32,254 nucleotides of DNA from Thermodesulfobacteriota bacterium (GCA_028282925.1 JANQGV010000234.1:1-32254), one strand, 5' to 3'. Positions 6,763-17,040 are shown, counted from the stretch's first letter. Notes: a model not told the origin generated them from the sequence alone. A program made the numbers and translations.

Positions 6763-6966
6763 CGGGAAATAGATTATTTTCTGTAAACTGGGCAAAGTAT
6801 AGGGCGAATACCGGTTGTGTGTCAACAATAACAGTTTTGCAGGCTTTTCGATGCGCTTTTGTAACAGGCCGAATAAACTTCTTTTTGTGCCTTAAAAACA
6901 GTGTTTTCTCTCCGTCTATTACATGATATAGTAACCCAAAGAAAAAACAAAGGGGAGTTGCAGCTT

Positions 6967-9165
6967 ATGAAAAGGGGTGATGCAATGGTAAAGCAACTGA
7001 TAATGGTTTTGCTGCTGGCGGGCTTTCTAGCCGGCGGGTGCGACCGGACAACGGATGATATCGAAGAAGACATTAAAAACGCAGAAGATGTAGGAGAGTG
7101 GATCGACGCCCTTGCCGCACGCCCCGACAATTACGAGCCTCCCACGGTCACCTCTTCCAACCAGCTTATTGAGGCGGATTACAAAAACGGCACTATTACC
7201 CTGGACCAATACTACGAGCTGAAGCTGACAGCCGCCCTTGACCACGACAACTTGGACAAGGAGTATAAAGCAACGTTTGATAATGCAACGGACATTACCT
7301 CTCTTCTGCGTTTGCTCAGTAACGATTTCGATCGTCTCTCGGAGGAAACCCGGAGCAAGCTGCAGCCCTACCTGCTTTCATTCGATGATCCCCAAAGCGC
7401 CTGGTACGAGGAAGGACATCCCACGGCCGAGGATGTTTTGCAACAACGGCAAGCCCTGATTAAAGGCCCTTTGCCGGATATGGAGCGGCCCAGCATCCTG
7501 GGAGAGTATTTTCTGGTTACCGGTCAGGCGGGTACGGAGCGGCAGCAGGAAATCGTGCTGGGAGCCCTGCAGGATTCCTATGACACGTTTAAAGATCTTG
7601 GATTTCCCGAGCCGACCGACTGGATACGGGTGCGGGTAATGGATCGGCCCGGCGGCAATAATAGAAACTACGACGGTGTTGAGTACTTTCAGGAACTGCT
7701 TGGCCGGGATCGCTGTCATATCGATATCAAGTTGAGCCTGGCTACCGCAACCATGAAAGCCACCACGGCCCATGAGCTGTTTCACTGTTTCCAGGAATAT
7801 ATGGGCGACAACTTCAGCCTGACCAGTCCGGCATGGGTATGGGAATCAACAGCGGTGTGGGCAGAAGAGTTTGTCTACCCCACCGCCAACGAAGAGCATA
7901 TCAGGGACGCGGGCCATTTTTCCCAACTCGACTGGACCCTGCTTTCCTCGAATTCGCTGCATGATTATAATTCATATTTATTCTGGTTTTACTATTATCA
8001 GAAAAACGGTAAAACCGGTACCCAGGTAAAGAGCATGCTGGGTGATATTTATGAAAACCATAATACGGCCCAAACGTTGATGCAGCGTCCCGACTTTTAT
8101 AACGAGTTTAAGGAATACGCCCTGTGGAATTTCAACCAGAAGCCCTTTAAGTTTTTTATCGACACCGATAATGAACCGACGATACGGCCGTTCGGGTCGT
8201 CGGTGAGCCACCGCCGTATAACCGGCAACACCCAGGATGTTGACTCGGTTATTTTACCGGCCGGCGGCATTGTCCTCTATGTCTATACCTTCGGCCCGCT
8301 GGTGGATAAAGTGGTTTTTGATTTAACCGAGATTCAAAAGGACGAAGACAACCATAACGGCGTTCAGGTTATTTATGAGGTGGACGAGCGCTTTACCTAT
8401 GAAGATGTTTCCTATCGTGACGAGCTGGCCTTCTGCCGCTCGCGCACGAGCGAGGAGGTCTCATCGGTTGTTTTTATTATATCCAACGGAAATCTGGACG
8501 AGTCTGATAACGGATCGCTTCTTTCTGCAAGTTTGCCTATAGACGCAACGGGCATTTGTGTGCCGGAATGGCGCGGTTATGTCGACTACACCTGGAGTTC
8601 AAGCGGATCGGGCGACGGCCGGACTGATGACATGTTTATCCTGGGCAACTATGAGTCAAACGGGCATACCCGGGTGGAAGAGAAGCTGTTTTTTGATTCC
8701 TACGAAAAAGAGTTTTACGCAACAGAGCAGTATGTAACCCATTCTTCACACTACAGCTGGATGGTGGAGTATGCGGAGCCGGACACGGGCGGAGCCGGGT
8801 CGTGGACGGCCTGGGAGAAGAAGCAGGAAACCAAGCAGGGTAGCACGCTTCTTACCTATGATGTGCCGGACGACTGCCCAGAGTTCAGCTGCACCGGTAT
8901 TCCGAAGGCTATCAAACCGTATGGCGACAACGAGACCCTGTATGTGCATCGAACCTTTAATTTCAGGGACCTGGGTACGTATACTTCAAAGCATGAGATT
9001 ATGTGGGTACCGCAAGGATTGTGGCTGAACGAAGTCGAGCATACCCTCAATGTTTCCTGCCCTCCCGATGCAATGCTGCTGAGGATGTCGGACAACGGCA
9101 CGCGGATGTATGGGGAGTATTCTACGGAGAGTGGGATAATAATCGCTGAATTTACCTACGAATAG
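6967..9165 (+). CDS. Lipoprotein with gluzincin-type metallopeptidase motif
   Basis: This 732-residue protein has a short basic start, a hydrophobic core and FLAGGC, giving a lipidated Cys25. The zinc-protease motif HELFH (269-273) is followed 19 residues later by Glu293 in WVWESTAVWAEE, the HExxH-x19-E spacing of thermolysin-like gluzincins, so catalysis is plausible. The region after about 400 looks like beta-sandwich modules, with many Asp/Gly/Ser and aromatic residues. I cannot assign a named peptidase family. ATG 6967 has AGGGGAG nine bases upstream. ATG 6985, with its own AGGGGTG, is an alternative and would remove six residues. The gene is divergent from the sigma factor operon and shares the 6734-6966 spacer, in which I see no convincing promoter for it. 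It is likely an outer-membrane or periplasmic surface lipoprotein. Confidence 0.75.
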   Translation: MKRGDAMVKQLIMVLLLAGFLAGGCDRTTDDIEEDIKNAEDVGEWIDALAARPDNYEPPTVTSSNQLIEADYKNGTITLDQYYELKLTAALDHDNLDKEYKATFDNATDITSLLRLLSNDFDRLSEETRSKLQPYLLSFDDPQSAWYEEGHPTAEDVLQQRQALIKGPLPDMERPSILGEYFLVTGQAGTERQQEIVLGALQDSYDTFKDLGFPEPTDWIRVRVMDRPGGNNRNYDGVEYFQELLGRDRCHIDIKLSLATATMKATTAHELFHCFQEYMGDNFSLTSPAWVWESTAVWAEEFVYPTANEEHIRDAGHFSQLDWTLLSSNSLHDYNSYLFWFYYYQKNGKTGTQVKSMLGDIYENHNTAQTLMQRPDFYNEFKEYALWNFNQKPFKFFIDTDNEPTIRPFGSSVSHRRITGNTQDVDSVILPAGGIVLYVYTFGPLVDKVVFDLTEIQKDEDNHNGVQVIYEVDERFTYEDVSYRDELAFCRSRTSEEVSSVVFIISNGNLDESDNGSLLSASLPIDATGICVPEWRGYVDYTWSSSGSGDGRTDDMFILGNYESNGHTRVEEKLFFDSYEKEFYATEQYVTHSSHYSWMVEYAEPDTGGAGSWTAWEKKQETKQGSTLLTYDVPDDCPEFSCTGIPKAIKPYGDNETLYVHRTFNFRDLGTYTSKHEIMWVPQGLWLNEVEHTLNVSCPPDAMLLRMSDNGTRMYGEYSTESGIIIAEFTYE

Positions 9166-9170
9166 GGGGG

Positions 9171-9472
9171 AGGCGGCCCTATAACGCCCATCTGCTGTGT
9201 TGCGCTCACCCTTCGTCACTGCAGCGTACTTGTTAGTCCCAAACCAAGCGAAGAGTTCTGCTGCGGTTGCTATAATGCCCGAATCTACCGGCTGTACTCC
9301 CTACAGCCTCATCAACGTACAAAAAAGTACGCTTCTTCGGCTTCCGGTCTGTGCAACCTGAATCTCCGGGCATTCTAACGCCCTCGCGACGAACCCTCGC
9401 TTGATTTGGGACTAATGCGCCTCACTCCCAAGGATTTCGCGCGCCTTGTATCTGAACATTCTCCAACAGCCT
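9171..9472. repeat. Dispersed palindromic repeat, copy interrupted by a nested element
   Basis: The outer parts (9171-9230 and 9416-9472) match the compact copy at 24888-25010: AACGCCCATCTGCTGTG, CCTTCGTCACTGC, TTTCGCGCGCCTTGTATCTG and CAACAGCCT. The loop of the repeat, between GCGTA and TGCGCC, holds a 183-bp insertion. No open reading frame of interest is present. Confidence 0.75.
9233..9415. repeat. 183-bp nested element with terminal inverted repeats
   Basis: The ends are perfect 11-bp inverted repeats, TTAGTCCCAAA at 9233 and TTTGGGACTAA ending at 9415. They extend with one mismatch to 19 bp (TTAGTCCCAAACCAAGCGA). The interior continues as an imperfect palindrome to a GTAC-AAAAAA-GTAC centre near 9317-9330. 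It encodes no protein. It resembles a small MITE or long hairpin. Confidence 0.7.
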
Positions 9473-9516
9473 CCCACTTTCATGTAGTTAATCAAATGTT
9501 TCCAGAATTGTCGGAT

Positions 9517-9539
9517 AACATCCATCTGCGGCGTTGTGC
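9517..9539. repeat. Fragment of the dispersed palindromic repeat
   Basis: AACATCCATCTGCGGCGTTG resembles the left arm of the repeat (AACGCCCATCTGCTGTGTTG) with a few changes. It is too short to be certain. Confidence 0.35.
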
Positions 9540-9599
9540 ATATATGGCCAATACATAACGGCAGCAGTGTTTCCCTGGAATTTTCAATGCACTCTCATC

Positions 9600-9628
9600 T
9601 TGACAACAATATCGATTTTTCGCATAAT
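9600..9628 (+). promoter_or_regulatory. Promoter of tRNA-Leu
   Basis: A perfect TTGACA (9600-9605), a 17-base spacer and CATAAT (9623-9628), which is one mismatch from TATAAT, lie about 40 bases before the tRNA. This promoter is not present at the degenerate copies. Confidence 0.7.
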
Positions 9629-9666
9629 AGAGAACTTCAAGTTACTTCATATAGTTAGTCAAGTGT

Positions 9667-9754
9667 GCCGGTGTGGTGGAATTGGTAGACGCAGGGGACT
9701 CAAAATCCCCCGGGCCTCGCGCCCTTGTGAGTTCGAGTCTCACCACCGGCACCA
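9667..9754 (+). tRNA. tRNA-Leu (anticodon CAA), CCA encoded
   Basis: The acceptor stem GCCGGTG pairs with CACCGGC. The anticodon stem GGGGA/TCCCC encloses CTCAAAA, giving anticodon CAA at 9701-9703, which reads UUG. The long variable arm GGGC-CTCGC-GCCC marks a class II tRNA (Leu). The T arm is GTGAG-TTCGAGT-CTCAC. The 3' end is A plus encoded CCA. The gene has its own promoter and terminator. Parts of it are duplicated at 15877-16008 and 17105-17191, so it probably served as an integration or recombination site. Confidence 0.97.
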
Positions 9755-9762
9755 GATAATTC

Positions 9763-9794
9763 AAGGAGTTGCCCAATCGGGCAGCTCCTTTTTT
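9763..9794 (+). terminator. Rho-independent terminator of tRNA-Leu
   Basis: GGAGTTGCCC-AATC-GGGCAGCTCC forms a ten-pair stem (one T-G pair) followed by six T. The same structure with one base change recurs at 15977-16008. Confidence 0.92.
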
Positions 9795-10071
9795 GTTTCG
9801 CGAGCCCGCGTGTTCAACATTTCAAAAACAGTTGACTACACTTACTACATTGTATATTCTTCGCAGCAGGCAGACACCATACGCCTAAAAAATCGACGTA
9901 CTTTTTGGATGGATTCGGAAGCTGGCCTTTAAAAAATACGGCCGCCTCCTGTTAATGGATGGCAAAAAACTGTTCAACGGCAAAATCCTTGAACAGACGA
10001 TGCCAGCAGCGTAACTGTCAATGACACGCCGGGAGGTCTGGCCACTGTCAAGTCAGGCACTATTAAGAAAC
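9795..10071. other. Gene-free spacer after tRNA-Leu
   Basis: This stretch has no supported gene. A short open stretch (about 9889-10014 in frame 1) ends in TAA and encodes roughly 41 residues with no recognised family and no start signal. It may be debris from an older insertion next to the tRNA. Confidence 0.4.
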
Positions 10072-10533
10072 ATGCAAGCAATCCAACCCAAAATCAAGCT
10101 TCCCCTAAAGCATTCCTGCCGCCCGGCAGTCAGTCTGCTTCTATGCCTGATCGCCGCTATCATTCAAAGCAATGTCTCGACATTATGCTTTTTTCATTCA
10201 AGCGAAACCAGCTCGTTTCATAATTCTGACGTATGCACTAAATCGCATGAAACAAGGGATAATCCGGTATGTAGTTCCGGTGACACGCATAAACAACACC
10301 CGGAACCCAAAAGGCATGACCACAGCGGCCAAACGCATGATCATTCAGGATGTTCTATATGTTATGTGATTCACTGCTTATACGCCGTACATATATCCGC
10401 TTTCTATAATTTTCTACAATATGCCAGTCCACTTTTTGAATTCAGCGCAGATGATCAAACGTCAACATCTGTTTTTATTGCCTTCCTTTATCACAGCCGC
10501 GCGCCCCCCGCTGTTTTTGCAAGCCATACATAA
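10072..10533 (+). CDS. His/Cys-rich DUF2946-like small membrane protein
   Basis: This 153-residue protein has a hydrophobic N-terminal segment (about 19-40), a polar middle rich in His, Cys and Ser, the motif HDHSGQTHDHSGCSIC (82-97), a second hydrophobic stretch (98-116) and an end reading SRAPPAVFA. This order, with CxxC next to a His cluster and a terminal RAPP, is typical of DUF2946-like proteins found beside metal-transport genes. A metal-binding or accessory role in the inner membrane is inferred. The start is uncertain: ATG 10072 lacks a good ribosome-binding site, and ATG 10021 in the same frame would add 17 residues. It precedes the zinc operon in the same direction. Confidence 0.6.
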   Translation: MQAIQPKIKLPLKHSCRPAVSLLLCLIAAIIQSNVSTLCFFHSSETSSFHNSDVCTKSHETRDNPVCSSGDTHKQHPEPKRHDHSGQTHDHSGCSICYVIHCLYAVHISAFYNFLQYASPLFEFSADDQTSTSVFIAFLYHSRAPPAVFASHT

Positions 10534-10809
10534 TCTTATACCGCCCTGCTATTCTGGATTTATTCATCAGGAATCGAAACGAGGTGCCGATCACAGCTCC
10601 CGGTTATTTCGGAGAAGCCAAAGGACACTTCCGGCCGCCTTTCGGCAACCTCACGGCTGGCGCTAGATACGTGGTGAATAATCCGGACTAGATGCTTTCG
10701 GTCTTTTTTATGGAATAAGCTCACAGCATCATGATACTGCTGCATTTGTGGCAGTACAAATATGTGATGCTCTATATGCTCAGATGGATTCTTTGTGGGA
10801 GGTTTATCG
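10534..10809. promoter_or_regulatory. Zinc-operon leader with nested inverted repeats
   Basis: No gene is supported here. Just before the porin gene, an outer pair AGCATCA (10725-10731)/TGATGCT (10765-10771) encloses an inner pair TACTGC (10735-10740)/GCAGTA (10751-10756). The block could be an operator for a Zur-like repressor or a leader RNA hairpin. It does not match a riboswitch class that I recognise. GGGAGG at 10797-10802 is the ribosome-binding site of the next gene. Confidence 0.4.
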
Positions 10810-12309
10810 ATGAACAAATATTTGCGCGCACAATATATATACCTATTATGCCTGCCATTCCTTCTTTTCGATCTGACAGCAATACCGGTTTACGCAGCCG
10901 AAGTCAGCCAGGAGGAGCGTATCCGAAAACTTGAAAAGCAGGTCGAGCTGCTTTTTCAGCATGTAGAACAAAAAGATGAGGAAATCCAAAAATTGAAGAG
11001 TCGTCTTGAGCAGTTCGGCCAGCAATCCGCTACACAGGAAGCATCGGCTTTATCTCCGCAAGAAGAGCTCGACGCAATGGTTCAGGAAGTAGAGAACCGG
11101 CCGGAGTCAAAAGAACGCTCACTGCTGTCAAGTAATGCCGGAAACATGAACCTGCGGCTGATTGACGTTTCTGCAATAATCAATGTTTCCGGCGGCAGCT
11201 CGACGGCCAATAGTGATGAGATAGAAAAGCTGCAGGGAGGCGGTCACGACCCCAAACGCCGGGGATTCACCTTTCAGCAACTGGAGCTCTCGGTTGCCGG
11301 TGCAGTAGATCCCTACTTTGTGGCTGAAGCGCATATGATATGGACGGAAGAACATACCGAGCTTGAAGAGGCTTTTGCAACAACGACCTGCCTGCCATGG
11401 GGCCTACAGTTGGAAGCCGGTCTTTTCCTGACTGAATTCGGCAGAATCAACCCAACACATCCCCATACGTGGTACTGGCTGGATCAGCCTGTTGTCAATA
11501 CGCGTATGTTCGGTGCCGACGGTATGCGCGGAACAGGCTTCAGGCTCGGCTGGCTGACACCACTGCCGTGGTTCAGCGAACTTCACTTTGGCATTCAGGA
11601 CCCCCGGGGCGCTGCAATGCCGAGCTTTAATGGTCAAGGGCTGGAACACAGCCACGATCACGGCCATGGAGGCGGTCAAGGCATAGCCGGTCGAACAACG
11701 GTTGATCGCGACGTTAGAAAATTTAAAGACCTGGTTTATCTGATGCGATGGACCAACGGCTTTGACCTATCCGATACGCTTTCGGTTCAGCTGGGGGGCT
11801 CCATGCTGTACGGTCCGAACAATACCGGCTCCGATGGTGATACCTGGATTTACGGAGCTGATTTAGTGGTCAAGTGGCGGCCGCACAGTCACAAGCGCGG
11901 ATGGCCTTTTATAAGCTGGCAAACCGAGATCATAAAACGTGATTATTACGCAGACCACTTCTTCTCCCGGAATGTTCCCCGTGACTCACACACGCTGCAC
12001 GACTGGGGGATGTATACACAGCTGATGGTCGGGCTGCGCAGGCCGTGGGCCGCCGGAGTCCGTTTTGAGTACGCCACCGGACAGGGTAAGGGGTTTGAAG
12101 ACGGCAGGTTTATCGACCACGATCATGATCCGTTCAGGGATGAGCGCTGTCGGATTTCGCCTCTGCTGATGTGGCAGGCCACCGAATTTTCACGTATTCG
12201 CTTACAGTACAACTATGATTGGGCAGAGCACATTAAGGGCCATGACGAACACTCGGTCTGGTGCGGCCTTGAATTTCTTTTCGGCAGTCATCCTGCTCAC
12301 AACTTTTAA
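10810..12309 (+). CDS. Outer-membrane beta-barrel (porin-like) with His-rich loop
   Basis: This 499-residue protein begins with a signal peptide (MNKYLRAQYIYL..., cleavage near Ala29-Ala30). A coiled coil follows at about 33-70 (IRKLEKQVELLFQHVEQ), as in many trimeric or periplasmically anchored porins. The remainder alternates short amphipathic strands and ends with an aromatic-rich stretch terminating in Phe, as expected for a barrel. A loop at 280-289 reads HSHDHGHGGG, and more His clusters occur (THPHTWYW, DHDHDPF), suggesting metal capture at the surface. Neighbouring zinc-type ABC genes support a metal-uptake porin. ATG 10810 was chosen because GGGAGG lies seven bases upstream. I cannot name the exact family. 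Confidence 0.75.
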   Translation: MNKYLRAQYIYLLCLPFLLFDLTAIPVYAAEVSQEERIRKLEKQVELLFQHVEQKDEEIQKLKSRLEQFGQQSATQEASALSPQEELDAMVQEVENRPESKERSLLSSNAGNMNLRLIDVSAIINVSGGSSTANSDEIEKLQGGGHDPKRRGFTFQQLELSVAGAVDPYFVAEAHMIWTEEHTELEEAFATTTCLPWGLQLEAGLFLTEFGRINPTHPHTWYWLDQPVVNTRMFGADGMRGTGFRLGWLTPLPWFSELHFGIQDPRGAAMPSFNGQGLEHSHDHGHGGGQGIAGRTTVDRDVRKFKDLVYLMRWTNGFDLSDTLSVQLGGSMLYGPNNTGSDGDTWIYGADLVVKWRPHSHKRGWPFISWQTEIIKRDYYADHFFSRNVPRDSHTLHDWGMYTQLMVGLRRPWAAGVRFEYATGQGKGFEDGRFIDHDHDPFRDERCRISPLLMWQATEFSRIRLQYNYDWAEHIKGHDEHSVWCGLEFLFGSHPAHNF

Positions 12310-12325
12310 AAGAAAGGATAAAAAC

Positions 12326-12877
12326 ATGAAAACAAAAAAAGCAACCATGGTACTCATCATTGTGTTACTCCTGTGCGCTGCACCTGCAGCTTCTGCAGAC
12401 GATCGTTTGGTCATTTTGAATCCGGGAGACGAGATTCAAAGGGAATTCTATCTGCAGGACACATTTGACTTCTTTCCGCTCGGCCCTATTGAAAGTTATT
12501 TTGTTGTTGCTGCAGGTGCCGCTCAAGACCTTAAAATTGAGCTCACCGCAGACCCGGATCTTAAGTTTGGAGAAAGCGTTGTTTTTGGATTTTTGACTGC
12601 TGGTTTCAGTTCCGGGACAGGCCTGATATCTGTGTTCGAAAGGGGCGAGACGCCTGGCTCCGCTGAAGCAGACATTCATCTGCATTCAAGTTTTGGTTAT
12701 GTAATCGTCAGTGCGTTGATTATCAGCAAAGACAACGGTGTGCCAACACCGATACCCTGCACAATATCATTCTTACTGTCTACAGACGACCACGACCATG
12801 ATGATGACGACCACGACGATGACGATCATGACGATGACCATGACGACCACGACCATGATGATGACCATGACCATTAG
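12326..12877 (+). CDS. Exported protein with 30-residue Asp/His-only tail
   Basis: This 183-residue protein has a clear signal peptide (cleavage after ASA, residue 24). The mature part is a beta-rich domain (about 25-150) with no family that I recognise. The last 30 residues (154-183) are only Asp (21) and His (9), for example DDHDHDDDDHDD. Such a tail should bind several divalent metal ions, probably zinc, as a periplasmic buffer or relay. It sits between the His-loop barrel and the ZnuA-like protein and is co-directional, with AAAGGA seven bases before the ATG. The coding DNA of the tail is a low-complexity GAY/CAY repeat, prone to length change. A role as metallochaperone is inference. It might instead be a structural surface protein. 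Confidence 0.8.
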   Translation: MKTKKATMVLIIVLLLCAAPAASADDRLVILNPGDEIQREFYLQDTFDFFPLGPIESYFVVAAGAAQDLKIELTADPDLKFGESVVFGFLTAGFSSGTGLISVFERGETPGSAEADIHLHSSFGYVIVSALIISKDNGVPTPIPCTISFLLSTDDHDHDDDDHDDDDHDDDHDDHDHDDDHDH

Positions 12878-12925
12878 AGCGTTAAATATCAAAATGCATT
12901 TTCCATCTCTTCGTAAGGAGGAAAA

Positions 12926-13966
12926 ATGTTGAAAAAAAACAAGATCATGATCGTTTTTATCAGCGTTGTTTTATCAGCTGTACTGGCTTTGCCCGTTTAT
13001 GCCGAACCGCTGATCGTCTGCACGACCATACCCGATCTGGGAGACCTGACAAAACAAATCGGAGGGAAGGAAGTCGAGGTTACGGTATTTGTCAAGGGCA
13101 GCGAAGATCCGCACTTTCTTGAGGCACGGCCAAGTTTTATTAAACGGCTCAGCCGGGCCGATCTGTACATTGAAGCCGGTCTGGAGTTGGAAATAAGCTG
13201 GGCACCTGTGTTGCTGTTGAATTCCCGTAACAGCAATGTGCAGGTGGGCGGCCTGGGATACCTCGATGCCTCAGAAGTAATCGATGTAATGGAAATGCCC
13301 TCGGGCGTTATTGACAGATCGCTCGGCGACGTGCATCCCATGGGCAACCCGCACTATCTGATGGACCCCGTTTGCGGTCTTAAGGTTGCTGCGGCCATCC
13401 TTGAAAAACTGATCATGCTGCGGCCGGAAAAGAGAAAACTGTTCGAGAACGGCTACGAGAACTTCCGGCACAGGCTGTCCGCAAAGATGATCGGTGAAGG
13501 GCTGGCCGGGCGCTATGATCCGGAAAAAATGGCTGTTCTCTATGCGCACGGAAAGCTGAAAGAATTTCTAAATAAGACCGGCGAATTGCAGAGACTGGGC
13601 GGCTGGATGGGCATGATGATGCCCCTGCGCGGAGTCAAGGTCGTGGCAGACCATAATCTCTGGCCCTACTTTGCCGACAGGTTCGGGCTCAATGTGGTTG
13701 CCTACCTTGAACCGAAACCTGGCATGCAGCCGACGACACGGCACCTGCGCAAAGTCATTGGTCTGATCAAAGCAAAGAACATCGATATTATTCTGAGTGC
13801 CGCCTATTTCCCGGGACGGCACTCGAAATTTGTGGCTGAAAAAACCGGGGCAACAGTCCTGCAGATGGCCCACCAGGTGGGGGCCCGCCCGGAGGCGGAT
13901 AATTATCTGTCCATGGTTGATTACAACATCCGGCAAATTGTAACGGCTTTTGAATCTGCACAATAA
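12926..13966 (+). CDS. Zinc/manganese ABC transporter substrate-binding protein (ZnuA/TroA family)
   Basis: This 346-residue periplasmic protein has a signal peptide ending near Ala26. Cluster A-I metal-binding features are present: His63 (EDPHFLEARPS), His143 (NPHYLMDP) and His243 (DHNLWPYFADRFGL). At the position of the usual fourth ligand, Asp in LDPLG, this protein reads AHQVG, so His316 may complete an all-His site. The long His-rich loop of classical ZnuA is missing and may be replaced by the separate Asp/His protein encoded just upstream. TAAGGAGG precedes the ATG by six bases. It delivers metal to the permease encoded downstream. Zinc is more likely than manganese given the His sites and neighbours, but this is not proven. 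Confidence 0.9.
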   Translation: MLKKNKIMIVFISVVLSAVLALPVYAEPLIVCTTIPDLGDLTKQIGGKEVEVTVFVKGSEDPHFLEARPSFIKRLSRADLYIEAGLELEISWAPVLLLNSRNSNVQVGGLGYLDASEVIDVMEMPSGVIDRSLGDVHPMGNPHYLMDPVCGLKVAAAILEKLIMLRPEKRKLFENGYENFRHRLSAKMIGEGLAGRYDPEKMAVLYAHGKLKEFLNKTGELQRLGGWMGMMMPLRGVKVVADHNLWPYFADRFGLNVVAYLEPKPGMQPTTRHLRKVIGLIKAKNIDIILSAAYFPGRHSKFVAEKTGATVLQMAHQVGARPEADNYLSMVDYNIRQIVTAFESAQ

Positions 13967-14027
13967 TTGCCTGGGTCCGACAAAAAATTTTCCGGGCCGG
14001 GGCAAAACAATACGGGGAGGTTTTATT

Positions 14028-14786
14028 GTGGATACAACAAAGCCCGTGGATAACACGCTTGTTCAGCTCACAGATGTTGCGCTGGGATATGGTCGTTTTA
14101 CCGTTTTAAGGGCCGTGAACCTTCGGGTCAATACCGGACATTTCTGGTGTATTGTGGGAAGAAACGGCGAAGGCAAGACCACGCTGATCAACTCAATACT
14201 GGGAATGCTGAATCCCAGCGGGGGTTCCGTTTCTCTGGCACCGTCCTTGTCCGACAAAAAAAACATCGGTTTTGTGCCCCATCGGTGCGTTTTGTCACCG
14301 ACAATATCCACGACTGTACGAGAGTTTGTTTCTCTCGGCCTGATCAATCACCGCTGCCGCAAAACCGAACGCTCAGAACGTTTAAACTGGGCTCTTGACC
14401 AGATGGGTCTTTTCAAAAAAATAAAAGATAATTACTGGACTCTTTCAAGCGGCCAGCGCCAGCGTGCCCTGATCGCACGGGCACTGATTCGGCGGCCCAA
14501 GCTGATGATCCTGGACGAACCGACTACGGGACTTGATTTTTCAGTTGAACATTCACTGCTTGAATGTCTTCGTGAACTCAACACAAGACACGGTCTTGCC
14601 ATTATTCTGGTTACACATGACCTTGAAGTTGCTTTGCATTATTCCAGCCATCTGGCGGTGCTGTATGATGGGAATGTGCATGCCGGCCCCACGGCTGAAA
14701 TCAGCTCGCAAGACCACCTGATAAAGGTGTTCGGGGAAAAGAGGCTTTCACAAGTACGTGTCACATCTAAAGAAGCTGTTTCATAA
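14028..14786 (+). CDS. Metal ABC transporter ATP-binding protein (ZnuC-like)
   Basis: This 252-residue ATPase shows Walker A GRNGEGKT (44-51), signature LSSGQRQR (139-146), Walker B LMILDEP (159-165), D-loop TGLD and H-loop His197 (VTHD). At the Q-loop, where VPQR is usual, it reads VPHR with His85, an unusual change in a residue that couples ATP hydrolysis to the permease. The GTG start at 14028 has GGGGAGG about seven bases upstream. The frame is open upstream into the binding-protein gene, but the sequence there is not ABC-like. It forms the cytoplasmic motor with the permease encoded 14 bases downstream. Confidence 0.93.
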   Translation: MDTTKPVDNTLVQLTDVALGYGRFTVLRAVNLRVNTGHFWCIVGRNGEGKTTLINSILGMLNPSGGSVSLAPSLSDKKNIGFVPHRCVLSPTISTTVREFVSLGLINHRCRKTERSERLNWALDQMGLFKKIKDNYWTLSSGQRQRALIARALIRRPKLMILDEPTTGLDFSVEHSLLECLRELNTRHGLAIILVTHDLEVALHYSSHLAVLYDGNVHAGPTAEISSQDHLIKVFGEKRLSQVRVTSKEAVS

Positions 14787-14800
14787 AGGAGAGGGCTCTC

Positions 14801-15655
14801 ATGGTTCAGGAATTTATCGATTCATGGCCGCTGTTCGCCAATACGTATCTAGCAGGGTGGGCCATTGCAGTGCTTCTTTCCTGCGTGGGGTGGATGGTCA
14901 TAGCCCGCGACCAGATCTTTATCGGGGCGGCCGTTTCGCAGGCCTCCACGCTCGGTATTGCAGTTGCCCTTTTTCTCTCCTCCGCGCTGACCGGCCATGA
15001 TTTTAGCTGGATCAATACAGGATGGTTCACGGCCGCAATGGCTGTTTGTTTTTCCATTGCAGCCGCCCTCTTAACGAATTTCGGTGGCCAAACCGGGCGT
15101 CTCAGCCGTGAAGCCATAACCGGCTGGGTGTTTTTGGTTTCTTCAAGTTTTGCAGTTGTGCTGCTCTACCACACACCGATCGGGATGAAAGAGATACAGG
15201 AACGCCTCTCCTCGTCAATCATCGGCGCCGACCAGGGAGAAATCATTTTTTATGTTTGTCTGAGTTTAATAACAATTGCTGGAATGATGTTTACAAGGCG
15301 TGCGTGGATACTATTGGCAATGGATCCGCCTATGGCTGAGGCCGTGGGGCTTCGGCTATGGCGCTGGGAGTTGTCCTGGTCTTTGTGGCTTGGTCTGATC
15401 GTAGGGCTTTCAATCAGGTCAGGCGGCACGCTGTATACTTTTGGATGCCTGGTTTTGCCGCCGCTTGTTGCCAATCAGGTTTGCAAAGAAGTATCCAAAC
15501 TGATCATCGTATCGCCTTTAATTGGTCTTGTGTTTTCCATTGTTGGATTTATGGTGGCCAACTATTACGATTTGCCGCCAGCCCAGATAACCATTGCGCT
15601 GTTAAGCACTCTGTTGCTGATAGTCTGGCTCGGGCGCAGAATGGTTGCATTTTAA
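14801..15655 (+). CDS. Metal ABC transporter permease (ZnuB/ABC-3 family)
   Basis: This 284-residue integral membrane protein has about eight predicted membrane segments. The family regions include VIARDQIFIGAAVSQAS (33-49), which carries the early G-A/S-Q motif, and GSGGT-like SIRSGGTLYTFGCLVLPP (about 204-221). These match ABC-3 permeases for Zn/Mn. AAAGGAG lies shortly before the ATG, and the gene starts 14 bases after the ATPase stop. It is the last gene of the operon. The next structure downstream is a 13-bp inverted repeat that may end the transcript. Confidence 0.92.
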   Translation: MVQEFIDSWPLFANTYLAGWAIAVLLSCVGWMVIARDQIFIGAAVSQASTLGIAVALFLSSALTGHDFSWINTGWFTAAMAVCFSIAAALLTNFGGQTGRLSREAITGWVFLVSSSFAVVLLYHTPIGMKEIQERLSSSIIGADQGEIIFYVCLSLITIAGMMFTRRAWILLAMDPPMAEAVGLRLWRWELSWSLWLGLIVGLSIRSGGTLYTFGCLVLPPLVANQVCKEVSKLIIVSPLIGLVFSIVGFMVANYYDLPPAQITIALLSTLLLIVWLGRRMVAF

Positions 15656-15775
15656 ATAAAACGCAAAAAAGGGTTGTTTACATACCTGACCTTTGCTGCT
15701 CTGATAGGTACCGCTCATCTGTCGCGTGATGTAAAAGCACGATAGTATGGTGTGCTAAACTAGTGTGCACAAGAC

Positions 15776-15813
15776 TGCACCATATGTAACAAGAGGTAAC
15801 TACATATGGTGCA
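15776..15813 (+). terminator. Inverted repeat downstream of the zinc operon
   Basis: TGCACCATATGTA (15776-15788) is perfectly repeated inverted at 15801-15813 with a 12-base loop, followed by ATTTT. It may be a weak terminator or an operator. It lies 120 bases after the permease gene and 64 bases before the tRNA-derived copy. Confidence 0.45.
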
Positions 15814-15876
15814 ATTTTGGATGTATTTTCAATGGAATAGGGAAATCAGACCGAAAATCAAGAGCCTGCCGATCAT

Positions 15877-16011
15877 GCCGGTTTGGCTCTCAAAATCCCC
15901 CGGGCCTCGCGCCCTTGCGATGTGAGTTTATCCTGAGTGTAGCGCAGGGAGTCTCACCACCGGCACCAGATAATTCAAGGAGTTACCCAATCGGGCAGCT
16001 CCTTTTTTGTT
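15877..16011 (+). repeat. Degenerate tRNA-Leu copy plus terminator (putative att-like direct repeat)
   Basis: Positions 15889-15917 are identical to 9699-9727 of tRNA-Leu (anticodon loop through variable arm). Positions 15949-16011 match 9735-9797 (T arm, CCA end and terminator) with one mismatch. The D arm is lost. A short hairpin-like insert (TATCCTGAGTGTAGCGCAGG) splits the T arm, so this is not a working tRNA. Its orientation is direct relative to tRNA-Leu, and the metal operon lies between them. Confidence 0.9.
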
Positions 16012-16089: not shown

Positions 16090-17040
16090 ATGCTTCGCAC
16101 GTTAATTTCAGGATGCAGTGTAGAATACCAAGGTGAGCCGGTCACCCGGACCATTACCGCCGGTACTTTTGAATTGCGCGGGGAAGCCCAGGACGAGGCG
16201 ACCATATCGATGAAGTATACGACTACCGGCGGCGGCAGCGTGTGCAGTATTCAGTATACTGCGCAGCTCACCCTCGACAGCGGTGTGGAGCTGTTTGAGA
16301 CCCTGGCCGAATTTGCCGCCGGCGATTTCCTCGAATCGGTCGAGCGCGACGAGCAGGGCAACACCTGGTTGACGAGTTACGGCCCAAGCGGTGCCGGGGT
16401 ATTTAAGATTCTCGATGACAGCGTTCCCAACGGCATCACCGCCGACATGGACGGAAACCTTTACGTTGCCGACAATGGCGCCGGACGGGTGTTTCTGCTC
16501 GAGGCCGGGGGCGACACCCCGGTGATCTGGGCTGAAGGCGGGCTGCTGGCCCCGCTCATAGGAGACATCCCGGGACCCAATGGTATCAAAGTTTACAACG
16601 GCTCTGTTTACGTTTCAAACATGTCCCAACTGTCTATAGTGCGTATTCCAATACTGGATGACGGCTCAGCAGGAAAGCCCGAGAAGATCGCGGACGGGAT
16701 AGTTGTGGATGACTTTGCTTTTGATGCCCAGGGCCGCATCTGGGCAACCACCCACCCCTTCAACAGCATCGTACTGATTCGTCCTGATGACGGCACCATT
16801 CGTCTGATGTATGACTACAAGGATGGCATCTGGGGGCCGTGCGACGTGATTTTCGGTGCCGACCCGAACGACGCCGGCACGCTCTATGTGGTTGGCGACG
16901 GCAATATCTATGGATCGGCGTGGTCACCGTGGTTCCAACAGTCTCCGGATGTGTTGCCCCCCAAAGTCTTGCGTATTGATGCAGGCGTAGAGGGAGCTCC
17001 CGTTCCGGGGGATGCGACCGTCTCAATCCAATCACCGTGA
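16090..17040 (+). CDS. SMP-30/NHL-like beta-propeller protein
   Basis: These 316 residues contain propeller-type blades: PNGITADMDGNLYVADNG (113-130), GDIPGPNGIKVYNGSVYVSN (about 154-173) and FAFDAQGRIWATTHP (about 205-219). This is the pattern of SMP-30/gluconolactonase or NHL sheets. There is no signal peptide. The N-terminal region (1-70) is beta-rich with two Cys, so the gene may be a 5'-truncated exported protein. GAGG lies eight bases before the ATG. No catalytic metal ligands can be confirmed, so the enzymatic role is unknown. It lies alone between two tRNA-Leu-derived repeats, suggesting cargo of a mobile or duplicated segment. Confidence 0.65.
   Translation: MLRTLISGCSVEYQGEPVTRTITAGTFELRGEAQDEATISMKYTTTGGGSVCSIQYTAQLTLDSGVELFETLAEFAAGDFLESVERDEQGNTWLTSYGPSGAGVFKILDDSVPNGITADMDGNLYVADNGAGRVFLLEAGGDTPVIWAEGGLLAPLIGDIPGPNGIKVYNGSVYVSNMSQLSIVRIPILDDGSAGKPEKIADGIVVDDFAFDAQGRIWATTHPFNSIVLIRPDDGTIRLMYDYKDGIWGPCDVIFGADPNDAGTLYVVGDGNIYGSAWSPWFQQSPDVLPPKVLRIDAGVEGAPVPGDATVSIQSP

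Follow-up and report, generated by a model that had tools for sequence, protein, structure and literature searches.

The six genes at positions 10,072–15,655 of a 32,254-nucleotide (nt) stretch from a Thermodesulfobacteriota bacterium (GCA_028282925.1 JANQGV010000234.1:1-32254; we call this whole stretch the window and count all feature coordinates from its first letter) probably form a zinc-import operon under nascent-chain control. The control would come from a zinc-responsive arrest peptide encoded by the first gene, a small DUF2946/CruR-like upstream open reading frame (uORF), and the genes behind it encode an outer-membrane barrel, an exported protein with an Asp/His tail, and ZnuA-, ZnuC- and ZnuB-like importer parts. 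We also lean towards a broader reading in which DUF2946 leaders bearing His and CxxC motifs serve as zinc-sensing nascent-chain switches that hold importers under arrest control in several phyla, sometimes in place of the regulator Zur, ahead of a TonB-independent porin. A first-pass annotation of the window had described six co-directional genes here, and all six open reading frames (ORFs) are indeed present on the plus strand, separated by short gaps save for 276 nt between the first and second. Its ZnuA-, ZnuC- and ZnuB-like assignments were likewise borne out, the last three genes being clear Pfam members of ZnuA (PF01297, 153 bits), ABC_tran and the ABC-3 permeases, while genes 2 (barrel) and 3 (Asp/His) had no informative family match.

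Conserved gene order and the case for zinc

We queried relatives with the barrel and, using an alignment of four barrels, a public genome collection, and recovered 80 related loci labelled as deltaproteobacterial, Binatota, Planctomycetota, Verrucomicrobiota, Myxococcota, Nitrospirota, Nitrospinota and others. Among the 73 loci that had 1200 nt or more of sequence past the barrel, 65 carried a ZnuA homologue directly after the barrel, with ZnuC and ZnuB mostly next (the window is one of the 73 and was scored negative, since its Asp/His gene intervenes), and this barrel-ZnuA pairing was recovered from searches with the barrel alone. One genome (G036) had uORF, barrel, ZnuA, ZnuC and ZnuB at 49–56% identity, with no Asp/His gene. 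Judged from gene order, the conserved unit is a small DUF2946 gene, a 16-stranded His-loop porin, ZnuA, in some cases ZnuC, and ZnuB. The order of barrel, Asp/His protein and ZnuA that the first-pass annotation had singled out was found by our search only in this genome, while barrel plus ZnuA is widespread.

That the cluster is a zinc-uptake operon, as previously proposed, is well supported by the cross-phylum gene order, Zur boxes, neighbouring Zur and COG0523 genes, and three His ligands. In the ZnuA-like alignment His63, His143 and His243 are invariant and align with the solved Synechocystis zinc-binding protein (1pq4/2ov1). The Vibrio campbellii barrel-ZnuA-ZnuB locus carries a Zur box, TGTTATAACATAACA, that matches the consensus used perfectly and lies 17 nt before the barrel, and a homologous Thiotrichaceae locus carries one with a single mismatch, TGTTACAATATAACA, 49 nt before the barrel; neither locus has a uORF. 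Zur and COG0523 genes stand immediately upstream of the barrel at L072 and L075, a Zur gene stands upstream of it at L078, and a Fur-family gene lies immediately downstream at L097, all four loci being free of a strict uORF (defined below). At L198, L199 and L203 the order is Fur-family gene, uORF, ZnuA, ZnuC, ZnuB, and at L198 and L203 Pfam confirms the Fur-family gene that adjoins the uORF on its upstream side.

These ligands and Zur sites or genes also bear on the idea that manganese, or a divalent metal other than zinc, is the substrate, which we consider unlikely. Manganese transporters do occur among ZnuA-family proteins, and the NCBIfam zinc-subfamily scores of the importer proteins fall under their cut-offs, with AztC, AztA and AztB at 88/350, 139/220 and 60/280 bits against their curated values, but the three His ligands and the Zur sites or genes at homologous operons argue for zinc.

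The alignment agrees with the earlier statement that a long His loop is missing from the ZnuA-like protein; as this loop is not needed for family membership, we filed the importer as ZnuABC-type rather than as having an E. coli-type ZnuA. The same genome encodes two more ZnuA homologues, on contigs C48 and C230, and that on C48 has a long His loop and is followed by ZnuC, ZnuB, a Fur-family-like regulator (Zur) and COG0523, a canonical set. Upstream of the window uORF, no Zur consensus form that we used exceeded shuffled sequences. Separately, a perfect palindrome, AATGCAATATATTTGCATT, lies at L047 2349–2367, upstream of this genome's canonical znuA, which has Zur and COG0523 downstream, and is possibly a regulator site of this lineage; it is absent from the window when up to 3 mismatches are allowed.

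A CruR-like leader and its predicted role

The first gene most likely encodes a CruR-type arrest peptide that acts as an upstream regulator, and not a transport component. CruR, a DUF2946 protein of Bordetella pertussis, senses copper through CxxC and arrests the ribosome through RAPP; both motifs are needed, the 45 residues between them are a conserved distance that matters, and once the arrest is relieved Rho can terminate transcription within a long intergenic region (PMC9426467). Arrest at RAPP has been confirmed in vitro (PMC12992588). The window uORF comprises an N-terminal hydrophobic segment of the export type, visible in the protein and in the alignment, a His-rich region, CSIC, exactly 45 residues, RAPP, 7 residues and a stop. 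The small proteins encoded upstream of the barrels share the hydrophobic N-terminus and a near-invariant His just behind it, together with a His-rich stretch, a CxxC and, at the C-terminus, R(A/G/S/P)PP. Under a strict definition (CxxC, then 43–47 residues, then [RQ]xPP, with no more than 12 residues left before the stop), we found such a uORF upstream of 37 of the 87 barrels preceded by 500 nt or more of sequence (L006 and L064 being one contig counted twice), versus 3 of 4240 other forward frames. Spacing from CxxC to [RQ]xPP had its mode at 45 (17 uORFs), with 46 in 12 and 44 in 6, and the distance to the following gene, which is 276 nt for the window uORF, was 38–312 nt in all others but one.

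Across the 37 aligned uORFs mean identity was 17% and the only invariant positions were C, C, P and P, a pattern of drift that would be expected of a regulatory nascent chain. Pfam matched 22 of the 37 orthologues to DUF2946 (best E 4.7e-10), the window protein itself being sub-threshold. The transport role that the first-pass annotation implied for this His-rich protein is most likely not its real one. The version of that role in which the protein is a periplasmic zinc-binding chaperone and RAPP is incidental we regard as very improbable: the protein is His-rich and appears exported, but its sequence drifts everywhere save at CxxC, RAPP and their spacing, and within this family a RAPP a few residues short of the stop has been proven to arrest translation.

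Because we wished to avoid circularity, further searches were begun from the small gene. Screening 148 genomes of the phylum with Pfam DUF2946 yielded three intact RxPP ORFs, all of which head barrel-ZnuA-ZnuB operons, and a uORF profile search of 297 genomes gave matches in 39. We inspected 20 loci, none of them used in building the profile and three of them the intact RxPP loci just mentioned: 8 uORFs lay before barrel-ZnuA/B (at L190 the barrel and ZnuB were recognised, the ORF caller having merged the ZnuA region into a longer frame), 3 directly before ZnuACB, 7 before TonB-dependent receptors (four Pfam-checked, the remainder judged from size and sequence start) and 2 before unassigned genes. 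His residues before CxxC were more numerous in the zinc-linked than in the receptor-linked uORFs (p 0.028, n 11 vs 7).

The alternative that deserves most weight keeps the same operon and arrest peptide but has the leader sense copper or another metal, as CruR does, with the importer serving that metal or being cross-regulated by it. CruR and CutF sense copper, CxxC binds copper, and some uORFs with the same motifs head TonB receptors; nevertheless, the downstream ZnuA-type importers with their three-His sites, the Zur boxes and the Zur/COG0523 neighbours speak for zinc, no copper gene was recognised in these operons, and the His after the N-terminal helix is nearly invariant, and we therefore hold copper sensing to be a minority prospect.

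In the scheme that we favour, with zinc as the signal, we infer the stalling itself, the zinc ligand, the direction of the response, Rho as the effector and the role of the Asp/His tail. When zinc is low, a ribosome on the leader gene would stall at the C-terminal RAPP and so preserve the message beyond it, most likely because Rho could not terminate it, as with copper-responsive CruR, and porin, Asp/His protein and ZnuACB would be made. Zinc bound at the His/CxxC site of the emerging leader peptide would relieve the stall, the ribosome would leave and the importer would be switched off. The metal itself would enter through the His-lined, TonB-independent porin, pass to the ZnuA-like protein and be pumped in by ZnuBC, with the Asp/His-tail protein as a local accessory, associated with the porin, whose probable task there is to buffer metal. 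The leader is rich in C and poor in G (C/G 1.66, vs 0.86–1.0 in other genes), and C/G of the last 80 uORF codons exceeded that of the barrel in 37 of 38 loci, which is compatible with what Rho loading would call for.

Several observations weigh against this scheme. The window uORF scores 20.1 bits against Pfam DUF2946 (PF11162), below the cut-off of 23.7, and about half of the barrel operons have no recognisable strict uORF. The His excess over receptor-linked uORFs is modest and a weak distinction, the described DUF2946 members respond to copper, which CxxC binds too, and the C-richness of the leader may come from His, Pro and Ser codon use instead. Finally, the intergenic leader RNA was no more stable than shuffles (z −0.89); as it is not unusually structured, a stem-loop masking the Shine-Dalgarno (SD) sequence is unsupported as a step in the control.

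Two further kinds of leader came to light alongside. At L057, L058, L060 and L061, in genomes of the same family, RAPP-ending leaders with no CxxC precede a lone barrel gene and are possibly arrest peptides that sense something other than CxxC-bound metal. At L196 and L200, CxxC-44-RAPP leaders precede a receptor-like protein, with ExbB-like genes next.

The porin, the Asp/His-tail protein and the island

The outer-membrane barrel with a His-rich loop that had been read from the sequence is supported by an AlphaFold2 model of moderate confidence (mean predicted local distance difference test score, pLDDT, 70), which has 16 strands and an N-terminal helix (coiled coil). The His-rich stretch comprises residues 280–289 (window 11647–11676), and an invariant HxH is formed by His217 and His219. 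Counting strands from a periplasmic N-terminus, we place the HxH in loop 3 and the His-rich stretch in loop 4, both of which would face outside; loop 3 of porins is often the constriction loop. The top PDB match of the model by Foldseek was OprP, and since the model is 16-stranded, uptake would be TonB-independent. A TonB-dependent receptor of the ZnuD type (22 strands and a plug) was rejected on the strand number and on the lack of a Plug match. PDB sequence searches with the barrel and with the Asp/His protein found no relatives.

The exported Asp/His-tail protein is present as first described, with a signal peptide and, over its last 30 residues, 21 Asp and 9 His; its model pairs a confident beta-sandwich domain with a disordered tail. 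Its gene was found in 0 of the 80 related loci, and we therefore regard it as a local addition to the operon and reject it as a conserved part of the zinc pathway, contrary to its earlier listing as a pathway member. The family is confined to this bacterium's family and order, most members adjoin a porin or barrel gene (Porin_5 proteins included), PstS-like genes lie near relatives in two loci, and the tail occurs only in the window copy and a second copy on contig C294. Tailless relatives beside porins, at L045, L051, L052, L053, L029 and L035, form an uncharacterised porin-neighbour family. Foldseek matches of the beta-sandwich were generic (the copper protein CorA among them), with template-modelling (TM) scores below 0.6, and were not used for function. 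AztD is a beta-propeller, and an AztD-like role was set aside given the beta-sandwich model and the lack of conservation with the importer.

The first-pass annotation had further suggested that this protein took over metal capture from the missing ZnuA His loop. The tail is rich in Asp and His and the gene adjoins znuA, but the loop is equally short in relatives with no Asp/His gene, which leaves the takeover without comparative support; moreover, the gene is missing from the 80 related loci, its relatives accompany other porins, and the second tailed copy sits beside a different barrel with no znuA. We consider such a takeover unlikely, and retain the view of the protein as a probable porin accessory. 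The second barrel and Asp/His-tail pair lies on the minus strand of L043 (G000:C294), at 6825–10925 and upstream, in the order RAPP uORF (no CxxC), barrel, Asp/His protein, ferrochelatase-like lipoprotein and MntP, and this set may be a system for another metal or a porphyrin.

Judging from its flanks, the operon sits in a variable island slot. Direct repeats of the 3' half of a transfer RNA (tRNA) gene, tRNA-Leu, and its terminator bracket exactly the zinc operon (Table 1), and no integrase was seen among the ORFs within 9755–15889. The first-pass annotation of the cluster had mentioned neither these repeats nor the RAPP of the first protein. Genome G003, of the same family, has the same tRNA-Leu, partial tRNA repeats and the window's two anchor genes (62% identity), with different genes between; because the same site in a related genome (L219) holds other genes between the repeats and the same anchor genes, we interpret it as an island hot spot. 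At that tRNA in G003, an ORF resembles by eye an integrase C-terminus, although a fragment of it, slightly misplaced, had no Pfam match. The window barrel is 55–58% identical to barrels of other families and only about 25–28% to those of its own, in line with horizontal gain. A short insert at 15921–15948, which interrupts the tRNA repeat on the right, looks similar to a common palindromic repeat element. A 316-residue propeller-like ORF at 16090, outside the repeat-bounded stretch, was left out of the system.

Table 1. Features of the predicted zinc-import operon and its island in the window
Feature	Coordinates	Strand	Basis or detail
DUF2946/CruR-like uORF, predicted arrest peptide	10072..10533 (start 10021 also possible)	+	motif, Pfam, alignment
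RAPP arrest-motif codons CGC GCG CCC CCC	10498..10509	+	
Intergenic leader, uORF to barrel; presumed control site for downstream genes	10534..10809	+	276 nt
Outer-membrane 16-stranded porin-like barrel	10810..12309	+	AlphaFold2 model, alignment
Exported beta-sandwich protein with disordered Asp/His tail (tail 12785-12874), probably accessory here	12326..12877	+	
ZnuA-like zinc-binding protein, no His loop	12926..13966	+	Pfam, alignment
ZnuC-like ATPase	14028..14786	+	Pfam, NCBIfam
ZnuB-like (ABC-3) permease	14801..15655	+	Pfam, NCBIfam
tRNA-Leu (CAA), integration site, left island edge	9667..9754	+	ARAGORN
Left flanking repeat (tRNA 3' end and terminator)	9735..9797	+	63 nt, 98% identity to right copy
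Shorter left repeat	9699-9730		32 nt, 97% identity to right copy
Right copy of tRNA-Leu 3' repeat and terminator, putative right attachment site	15889..16011	+	~24-28 nt interruption

Relation to known systems

Metal sensing by translation arrest has been shown only for copper in the literature that we searched (few subscription papers, no figures), and within that literature we met no description of arrest-peptide switches acting on zinc importers. Should these leaders prove to respond to zinc, many uncultured phyla would have a second zinc control, one independent of transcription factors, and genome context would reveal which metal a DUF2946 leader senses, a prediction open to direct testing in cell-free translation. 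A further product of the operon is a candidate for a dedicated TonB-independent zinc porin, serving a step, the crossing of the outer membrane by zinc, that has few described carriers.

The nearest parallel is CruR-bfrG, which shares with the window a small exported first ORF with CxxC-45-RAPP, a long intergenic region and an outer-membrane metal importer downstream. Unlike CruR-bfrG, the window has a non-TonB porin and ZnuACB downstream, and leaders of the window type are His-richer in their N-terminal half with a near-invariant His after the helix, zinc being the expected ligand. A survey of RAPP/RGPP small proteins lists downstream Sec genes, TonB receptors, copper proteins and thiol-redox proteins, and its main text, figures excepted, makes no mention of zinc (PMC12992588). 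CutF of Rhodobacter capsulatus is a related copper leader, and the study describing it suggested that some CutF-like proteins are likely not copper-specific (Ni/Co) (PMC9973294). CutF-cutO shares with the window a DUF2946-type leader, a metal motif, a C-terminal proline motif and control of the next gene, but CutF turns a copper oxidase on with copper via an SD-masking stem-loop, whereas the window has an importer and no significant RNA structure.

AztABCD of Paracoccus likewise pairs a zinc ABC importer with a further metal protein that is secreted, and AztC and AztA were the best NCBIfam matches of the window binding protein and ATPase, though below cut-off. Its AztD is reported to be a separate zinc chaperone; the window Asp/His protein, unlike it, has a predicted beta-sandwich fold and is no conserved member of the operon. 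The OprP/DcaP porins share 16 strands with the window barrel and are among its top Foldseek matches, and DcaP has an N-terminal coiled coil, but the barrel differs from them in its ~9–14% sequence identity, its His-rich stretch, its conserved HxH and its linkage to zinc genes. With E. coli-type ZnuABC and Zur, finally, the window shares the ZnuA, ZnuC and ZnuB families, and it departs from that arrangement in a ZnuA with no His loop, a dedicated porin, and a uORF that would take the place of a recognisable Zur site.

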